From the NCBI RefSeq assembly GCF_900005615.1, contig NZ_LN832559.1, forward strand, positions 1,890,837 through 1,954,836: a stretch of 64,000 nucleotides of DNA, read 5' to 3'. Made by a program: the position numbers and the translations under genes. Under the pieces are notes generated by a model. It searched no databases. It was not told the origin of the DNA and worked only from the letters and a program-made list of their open reading frames with translations. The stretch is from Paracoccus aminovorans. Its GTDB lineage: Bacteria; Pseudomonadota; Alphaproteobacteria; Rhodobacterales; Rhodobacteraceae. Below are positions 2,425 to 17,302 of this stretch, one piece after another (position 1 is the stretch's first letter; each line of letters begins with the position of its first letter).

Positions 2425-2454
2425 AAAAAGAAAAAACCGGCCCCACGGGGCCGG
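2425..2454 (-). terminator. Rho-independent terminator after the 31-codon gene
   Basis: An 8-bp G/C stem, CCGGCCCC-AC-GGGGCCGG, is followed on the minus strand by TTTTTTCTTTTT. It sits about 75 bases past the stop of the small membrane-protein gene and closes that unit. Confidence 0.85.
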
Positions 2455-2530
2455 CAGTTGCGCGCATGATCGTCCGGGGAAAGGGTTCGGCCCCAGGCGA
2501 AGGGCCGTCGATTGCGCGGGGCAGGAGGGG

Positions 2531-2626
2531 TCAGGCCGCCAGGATCGAGGGCAGCGAGAACAGGATGATGGCGGTCACGGAAATCGCGACGGTGCCCAGC
2601 AGGTCGGAAAGGGATTCGCGGGTCAT
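2531..2626 (-). CDS. 31-residue predicted membrane protein behind a LexA-type operator
   Basis: This short reading frame starts MTRESLSDLLGTVAIS, continues into an apolar stretch (VTAIILF) and ends SLPSILAA, giving one predicted membrane helix with a charged N-terminal face. A strong ribosome binding site, GGAGAAA, lies 5-8 bases before the ATG, and a clear terminator follows. Upstream is a dense set of GAAC/GTTC half sites spaced as in alphaproteobacterial LexA boxes. Together these make it a real, independently transcribed gene. SOS-induced membrane peptides of about 30 residues are known elsewhere: TisB in Escherichia coli, and SidA, a division inhibitor in Caulobacter. I infer a similar class of role, but cannot claim homology to either. 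Confidence 0.72.
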   Translation of the reverse strand: MTRESLSDLLGTVAISVTAIILFSLPSILAA

Positions 2627-2644
2627 GAGGTTTCTCCACGGTTT

Positions 2645-2708
2645 GTTTATACTTTGTTCTCATGGGGAGAGAACAAAGTAAAGAACTTTTTAGGAACATC
2701 GTGGGAAC
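2645..2708 (-). promoter_or_regulatory. Array of LexA-type half sites and operator palindrome
   Basis: GAAC occurs at 2671, 2683, 2694 and 2705. The last three are spaced exactly GAAC-N7-GAAC-N7-GAAC, the direct-repeat form of the alphaproteobacterial LexA box (GTTC-N7-GTTC on the minus strand). On the other side, GTTT-N7-GTTC lies at 2645-2659. A perfect 12-bp inverted repeat, TACTTTGTTCTC / GAGAACAAAGTA, spans 2650-2680 with a 7-base spacer. On the minus strand a possible -10, TATAAA, lies within the array, so a bound repressor would block the small gene's promoter. recG ends at 2711, just before the array. Confidence 0.72.
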
Positions 2709-2710
2709 GT

Positions 2711-8038
<5,328 letters not shown>

Positions 8039-17263: not shown

Positions 17264-17302
17264 CATGCCGCTGAAACGAACAAAATGCGAACCAATCTGC
17301 CA

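Follow-up and report, generated by a model that had tools for sequence, protein, structure and literature searches.

On the minus strand of the Paracoccus aminovorans genome, directly behind recG, lies a 31-codon frame that is a real gene under coding selection and an essentially single-copy core gene of the Rhodobacteraceae. The gene is very probably under LexA control, and its product is almost certainly a membrane protein, as judged from its predicted helix. We found it in a 64,000-nucleotide stretch of DNA (hereafter the window) from a host genome of 4.04 Mb in 4 contigs. By analogy to damage-induced proteins of other bacteria, we tentatively propose that the small protein is a SidA-like SOS inhibitor of cell division, a plausible reading that stops a little short of probable, with the division target suggested by that analogy. 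In the wider family, the gene is followed by a well-supported structured RNA.

A small core gene downstream of recG

To orient the reader, the features of the locus are listed below, with positions counted from the first letter of the window.

2711..4825, minus strand: recG, the conserved upstream neighbour (NCBIfam NF008164, 1084 bits)
2634..2637, minus strand: ribosome binding site GGAG, 7 nt 5' of the ATG
2531..2626, minus strand: small protein gene MTRESLSDLLGTVAISVTAIILFSLPSILAA (with stop), 31 amino acids, single helix (conservation, synonymous and nonsynonymous counts, AlphaFold)
2436..2455, minus strand: intrinsic terminator stem-loop, then a T-run to 2426
1923-2360: SufU-type iron-sulphur scaffold gene, converging from the other side (match below the curated cut-off)

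Along the minus strand, an intergenic stretch of 84 bp separates recG from the 31-codon frame, and the terminator (2455-2436) comes after a further 75 nt. An initial annotation had credited the frame with a ribosome binding site and a terminator of its own, and both are in place, with GGAG 7 nt before the ATG and the stem-loop running into a stretch of T. When the window was compared to one close relative, the small frame displayed 14 synonymous and 0 nonsynonymous differences, and the 15 pairs among six close relatives differed at 1-14 synonymous and 0-3 nonsynonymous positions.

Within the genus, 56 of 61 genomes, the host among them, have a homologous frame. The search delivered 61 loci, of which five were left out as chance matches (one from another family and four second hits in genomes already represented), and a 57th match among 101 genomes fell inside a long unrelated frame. 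By E-value, several of the 56 were weak (up to about 1); place and operator were the grounds for trusting them. Five members of the genus carry a 45-residue version with an N-terminal extension and a differing 3' region that lacks the exact CUGCCCCGCG motif described below.

For the wider family, the sample was anchored on recG to avoid bias. The C-terminus of recG was detected in 106 of 110 genomes representing 109 genera, and the resulting set held 105 loci, from which five without a recG match in the extracted stretch were omitted, leaving 100 to be counted. A small hydrophobic frame follows recG in 94 of these 100 genomes, which represent nearly as many genera, and is absent from this place in the other six. 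The initial annotation had suggested searching the Rhodobacteraceae for the frame downstream of recG and had regarded a lack of conservation of the frame and its GAAC spacing as evidence against its reading; both proved strongly conserved. The unit can stand apart from recG: in nine loci of the family the LexA-type box is not adjacent to recG but begins 98-238 bp behind it, with the small gene still following. One genome among the five omitted loci carries a box and the small gene at another locus.

A profile built from 54 of the 94 family proteins matched 147 of 149 genomes of an order-level sample, all of them Rhodobacteraceae and nearly always in one copy. The same profile matched 7 of 240 genomes of a class-level sample; three belong to the same family, and the other four are at chance level. 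Thus, we rejected these four marginal matches (E 0.004-0.01, about the number expected by chance in 240 genomes) as homologs outside the family; three lie in frames of more than 230 residues and one in a 103-residue frame. The profile of the genus and that of the family align with a probability of 97.7%. The plasmid and phage collections, queried with one 40-residue family member, gave no match.

The family proteins share a layout of a short charged N-terminus, a near-invariant Asp and Gly, and a hydrophobic helix ending in Leu-Pro; the commonest residues at these positions recur in 93 (D), 91 (G), 90 (L) and 85 (P) of 94 proteins. Seventy of the 94 are 40 residues long, compared to 31 in the window, as called by a script that gave preference to lengths of 36-46 and to ATG codons behind a GGAGG-like site, so that the length counts are biased accordingly. 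AlphaFold, run on the single 31-residue sequence, predicts one helix spanning residues 2-30 with a mean pLDDT of 91, in line with the single helix that the initial annotation had claimed. No family was recovered at E<=1 in Pfam and NCBIfam (5 proteins each) or in PADLOC and PHROGs (2 proteins each). Named relatives came from Loktanella, Cribrihabitans, Cognatishimia and Roseobacteraceae, and are annotated as 'hypothetical protein' where named. Among the matches listed from the open-licence literature, the openings of titles and abstracts describe neither the small gene nor its 3' RNA, and a description elsewhere is possible.

A paired LexA-type operator

The intergenic region between recG and the small gene holds two opposed LexA-type boxes, a presumed promoter element and additional half-sites, as follows.

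2694..2708, minus strand: overlapping LexA-type box GTTC-CCACGAT-GTTC, with the third half-site at 2705-2708
2683..2697, minus strand: primary LexA-type box GTTC-CTAAAAA-GTTC, column-conserved in the family
2677..2682, minus strand: presumed -35 hexamer TTTACT (TTTACA or TTGACA in relatives), proposed from column conservation
2671..2674, minus strand: additional GTTC half-site (N8) that belongs to the inverted repeat and is not widely conserved
2650..2680, no strand: inverted repeat with arms of 12 bp (2650-2661 and 2669-2680; gap 7 bp), formed by two opposed half-sites
2645..2659, minus strand: second LexA-type box, opposed, near-consensus GAAC-AAAGTAT-AAAC

Read on the gene strand, the order is GTTC N7 GTTC N7 GTTC TTTACT ... 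GAAC N7 AAAC. The half-site at 2705-2708 is separated by N7 from that at 2694-2697, which is again separated by N7 from 2683-2686, and N8 leads to 2671-2674. The opposed GAAC (2656-2659) starts 23 bp after 2683, and AAAC (2645-2648) follows after N7. The four GAAC sites that had been noted on the plus strand at 2671, 2683, 2694 and 2705 are exact in position; two N7 steps join three of them as claimed, and the fourth is off by one.

GTTC-N7-GTTC has been reported as the alphaproteobacterial LexA motif (PMC3323433). The pattern is found three times in the window against 1.21 expected, a count reached by 12 of 100 shuffles, and 100 times in the host genome against 61 for the reversed pattern. 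Most copies of the box are therefore chance occurrences, and a lone box is weak evidence. Chance is ruled out for the present operator by its conservation across the genus and the family. Among the 56 loci of the genus, the box is present in 54, the arrangement GTTC-N23-GAAC in 55 and a near-consensus second box in 52. One further observation from the genus is an odd, rearranged operator, in which five irregularly spaced GTTC sites precede the gene.

Across the family, GTTC-N7-GTTC occurs within 250 bp after recG in 88 of 100 genomes. Over the same distance the reversed pattern was found in none of the 100, 50 shuffles gave a mean of 0.34 and a maximum of 2, and control variants gave 1 (complement), 0 (N5), 1 (N8) and 2 (N9). 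The N6 variant, found in 68 of 100, represents the third half-site. Twelve genomes are without an exact box within 250 bp; in one of them a box begins 238 bp behind recG and crosses that limit. Of the 94 family genomes, 78 have an opposed GAAC exactly 23 bp after the box, followed in 77 of these 78 by xAAC after N7, i.e., a near-consensus second box; 60 of the 78 also carry a third GTTC (N6 or N7) one turn further upstream. The column consensus of the 78 genomes reads GTTC.caaaTGTTCtcAaAAAGTTCTTTACa-N14-TGAGAACAAAggggCAACA, where the box and the GAAC are fixed by the selection of genomes and the remaining columns represent conservation. Counted from where the second box begins, the start codon is mostly 30-50 nt downstream, and the extremes among the family loci are 19 and 77. 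A consensus -10 element could not be placed: from the -35-like hexamer, TATAAA is 25 bp away, and AACAAA, at 18 bp, matches poorly.

The conserved unit thus pairs one canonical LexA box with a near-consensus box in the opposite orientation, the two flanking the -35-like TTTAC. The initial annotation had spoken of three or more boxes in a row, which does not describe this unit, even with the third half-site of the 60 genomes above. Likewise, the perfect 12-bp palindrome that it had listed exists as an inverted repeat with a 7-bp gap, but its arms are opposed GTTC and GAAC half-sites, and it shows the opposition of the two boxes as it looks in a single genome; as the N8 half-site is also not generally conserved, we rejected the palindrome as the site of a separate regulator. 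Paired opposed LexA boxes at a fixed spacing of 23 bp offer a natural test case for tight repression by an alphaproteobacterial LexA.

The host genome encodes one LexA. Inspection of 50 of its 100 box sites placed boxes close before recA, uvrA, lexA, a PA0069-type radical SAM gene and an imuA-like gene, the imuA match being below the curated cut-off. The box at 2694..2708 is similar to GTTCCCGTGATGTTC, the box at uvrA in the host. The LexA-type operator that had been suggested for the small gene is thereby upheld by the genus and family counts and by the boxed recA, uvrA and lexA genes, and we consider it very probable, from the conserved sites, that LexA binds here and that DNA damage induces the gene. 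LexA sites have also been predicted in Dinoroseobacter, in a paper that makes no mention of recG in its main text (PMC6473078).

Inspection of the boxes gave three side observations. A LexA-type box GTTCGCATTTTGTTC (17278-17292, minus strand) precedes by 109 bp a gene for a lon-like protease (start 17401, plus strand; named by eye from its N-terminus), and Lon could belong to the SOS response here if this box is real. In the host genome, a box at C1:50424-50438 lies between the imuA-like gene (below the NCBIfam cut-off) and a divergent frame of SRAP/HMCES type, as judged by eye. Another frame, imuA-like by eye and with no NCBIfam match, has its own box GTTCTATATTTGTTC.

A structured RNA in the 3' region

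Between the stop codon of the small gene and the end of the terminator lies the following region.

2426..2530, minus strand: 3' untranslated region with the leader motif CUGCCCCGCG (2524-2515), a closing stem, a hairpin with a C-rich loop, and the terminator

Within ~60 nt after the stop codon, CTGCCTG is found in 54 and CTGTCCC in 50 of 94 family genomes. Most of 15 sequences folded singly adopt one layout, in which an unpaired CUGCCUG is followed by a long closing stem, a hairpin with a CUGUCCC loop, a CUGCCUG stretch, a further hairpin, the closing strand and the terminator. Aligned globally, 78 3' regions shared no useful consensus except for the terminator, and a seed of nine sequences was therefore taken from 15 trimmed candidates. 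In an unfitted alignment of these nine, chosen from the 78, 10 of 24 pairs carry compensatory changes (shuffles: mean 3.3, 0 of 500 as high); further pair types numbered 14, a count reached by 99 of 500 shuffles.

The covariance model built on the nine sequences was run on the 100 loci and gave 63 matches at E<=1, nine of them seed sequences and 36 of the others scoring at least 20 bits; 37 loci were without a match at this threshold. Except for one match that overlaps the gene, all start -3 to +66 nt from the small-gene stop on the same strand (62 of 63), and the six genomes without the small gene are also without a model match. In the model-fitted alignment, which leans to the structure, 92.2% of cells pair and 24 of 24 pairs are compensatory (0 of 500 shuffles as high). 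Here, G-U (66) outnumbers A-C (25), which favours the mRNA strand as the folded strand.

In 20 of the 105 family loci searched against Rfam, no family reached its gathering score; at E<=0.5 only mir-1305 and tfoR appeared, far below gathering, with tfoR overlying the RNA in one locus. The window between 2200 and 3000 gave two sub-threshold matches, Hrs13 and PhotoRC-I. The former, at 2430-2509 (E 0.024; 20 bits, where gathering requires 52), was judged a chance match; the name Hrs13 occurs in an Erwinia amylovora paper. We thus regard the structured 3' RNA as new and outside the Rfam families. It is well supported in the wider family and would represent a new class of RNA tied to DNA damage.

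For the genus of the window, our data only suggest a structured RNA. The RNA is short here, with the CUGCCCCGCG motif and the closing stem remaining. Of 41 sequences, 40 preserve one variable pair of the closing stem, against a shuffle mean of 27.7 and none of 2000 shuffles as high; relatedness inflates this count, which was made without 15 further loci that lack the exact leader motif. An unfitted alignment of 10 genus sequences has compensatory changes in 5 of 13 pairs. The family covariance model yields no significant match on the genus sequences (best E 0.37), and the fold of the window's own 3' region is unexceptional (z -1.4 and -1.9).

The strong conservation of the 3' RNA raises the possibility that the protein is not the sole product of the transcript. 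It is conceivable, though we consider it doubtful, that one LexA-controlled transcript throughout the family yields both a membrane checkpoint peptide and a structured RNA that regulates other mRNAs or titrates a protein during the SOS response. In a related reading, the RNA would itself be an independent SOS regulator, with exposed CUGCCUG and CUGUCCC stretches pairing with G-rich sites of mRNAs or binding a protein, and the peptide would be the second product. The matches placed close to the small-gene stop, the compensatory changes in both alignments, the recurrence of CTGCCTG after the stop, the lack of an Rfam family at threshold and the joint absence of gene and RNA in six genomes all speak for such a regulator. 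The RNA could, however, be a mere stability or termination element, more than a third of the loci (37 of 100) are unmatched, and the genus RNA is short, with the weak model score and fold values given above; on balance, we find this reading unlikely. If the transcript does have two products, it would constitute a dual-function SOS RNA that was shortened in the window's genus.

Proposed function and comparison with known systems

Our preferred reading remains a division brake that resembles SidA. In an undamaged cell, LexA would occupy the two opposed boxes that flank the promoter behind recG and would so keep the small gene silent. Upon DNA damage, activated RecA would bring about cleavage of LexA, and a short mRNA for one small protein would be made. 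This protein would insert into the inner membrane and act as a brake on septum formation, perhaps at the level of FtsW, FtsI or FtsN, until the DNA is repaired. The conserved folded RNA at the end of the mRNA would at least protect or tune the message. The role would be the one that SidA fulfils in Caulobacter, reached independently. Damage-induced small membrane proteins that block late division through FtsW or FtsN have been described as a recurrent solution (PMC4211646, PMC13396833). The near-universal presence of the gene and its fixed place fit a core checkpoint role. Among the matches listed from the open-licence literature, no SOS division brake is described for the family, and the gene carries no name except 'hypothetical protein'. 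Rhodobacteraceae are widespread in sea and soil. With the gene in 94 of 100 genomes, a single deletion would test the checkpoint for the whole family.

Two other roles for the protein were weighed against the division brake. In the first, the protein would be an SOS toxin of the TisB/DinQ type that depolarises the membrane and renders cells dormant, restrained by LexA and an antitoxin RNA. Its 31 residues are close to those of TisB (29) and DinQ (27), one helix and LexA control are shared (PMC8309996), and translational control could involve a folded RNA carried by the message. Against this, a sigma70-like antisense promoter was found in 0 of 94 loci, with 2.8 expected by chance, so that this promoter type gives no signal for a type I antitoxin on the opposite strand; an antitoxin RNA encoded in trans, or one under another type of promoter, may still exist. 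Moreover, the short distance from the second box to the start codon leaves little room for an inhibitory leader, and the gene is essentially single-copy, sits in one place in nearly all genomes and, for the one member queried, is unmatched in plasmids and phages. The near-invariant D, G and LP would rather point to a specific partner than to a pore. Thus, the TisB-like character put forward in the initial annotation was not borne out, and we judge a toxin of this type to be improbable. In the second, the LexA-controlled membrane protein would serve another job, e.g. as an adaptor of a membrane protease or transporter or as an envelope regulator. Many small single-helix proteins are adaptors, and nothing in our data points directly to the divisome, but nothing points specifically to such a partner either, and we rate another job as quite improbable.

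That the boxes serve recG itself, or are not LexA sites, with the frame a by-product, is hardly credible despite the LexA regulation of recG reported in some alphaproteobacteria (PMC3323433), because recG ends before the boxes begin and a conserved coding frame, with its terminator, comes after them, the frame is under coding selection and the boxes match those at recA, uvrA and lexA. The 2012 comparative study that predicted this regulation includes Paracoccus denitrificans and Rhodobacter sphaeroides in its species set, and its recG-linked LexA site may be the site described here (PMC3323433). It was reported there as regulation of recG, whereas the site described here lies 3' of recG and would serve the small gene.

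Returning to the proposed division brake, several known systems can be set beside it. TisB/IstR-1 and DinQ/AgrB, the E. coli type I systems, likewise feature LexA control of inner-membrane proteins of 27-29 residues (PMC8309996); the present locus differs from them by showing no sign of an antisense promoter, by its short leader and by its near-universal, fixed position. YneA, SosA and ChiZ are damage-induced small membrane inhibitors of late division, as proposed here, but belong to other phyla, and YneA possesses an extra LysM domain (PMC13396833). DidA is also a damage-induced small membrane inhibitor of a late step in division, but is SOS-independent (PMC4211646).

The closest likeness in kind is to SidA of Caulobacter crescentus, a division inhibitor of 29 residues that resides in the inner membrane and acts through FtsW (PMC4211646). 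We deduced its sequence from one Caulobacter genome by inspecting 50 of 135 LexA-box sites. Three loci contained a hydrophobic frame of 26-34 residues at most 200 nt from the box, only one of which has 29 residues and an ATG preceded by GGAGG, 49 nt after the box. From its size, box and conservation, this frame is probably SidA. It is present in 9 of 10 Caulobacter genomes and absent from a draft labelled C. vibrioides. An orthologous relation was sought and not found, with hhalign aligning the present family with the presumed SidA profile at a probability of 0.2. Reciprocal searches, which have little power with so short a query, found presumed SidA in 0 of 4 family genomes, a small sample, and gave the family profile a best E of 0.25 in 5 Caulobacter genomes, with all matches in frames of at least 170 residues.

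Taken together, the small protein and SidA share a LexA-type box, a tiny one-helix protein predicted to reside in the inner membrane and an alphaproteobacterial host. The conserved D, G and LP are present only in the family described here and not in the presumed SidA sequences, and ~97% of Caulobacter SOS promoters are reported to have one box (PMC12700426), compared to two opposed boxes here. The likeness to SidA drawn in the initial annotation thus remains the best guess in the sense of one helix under a LexA-type box, but does not extend to homology with the presumed SidA; with no detectable homology between them, the family and SidA look like independent solutions.
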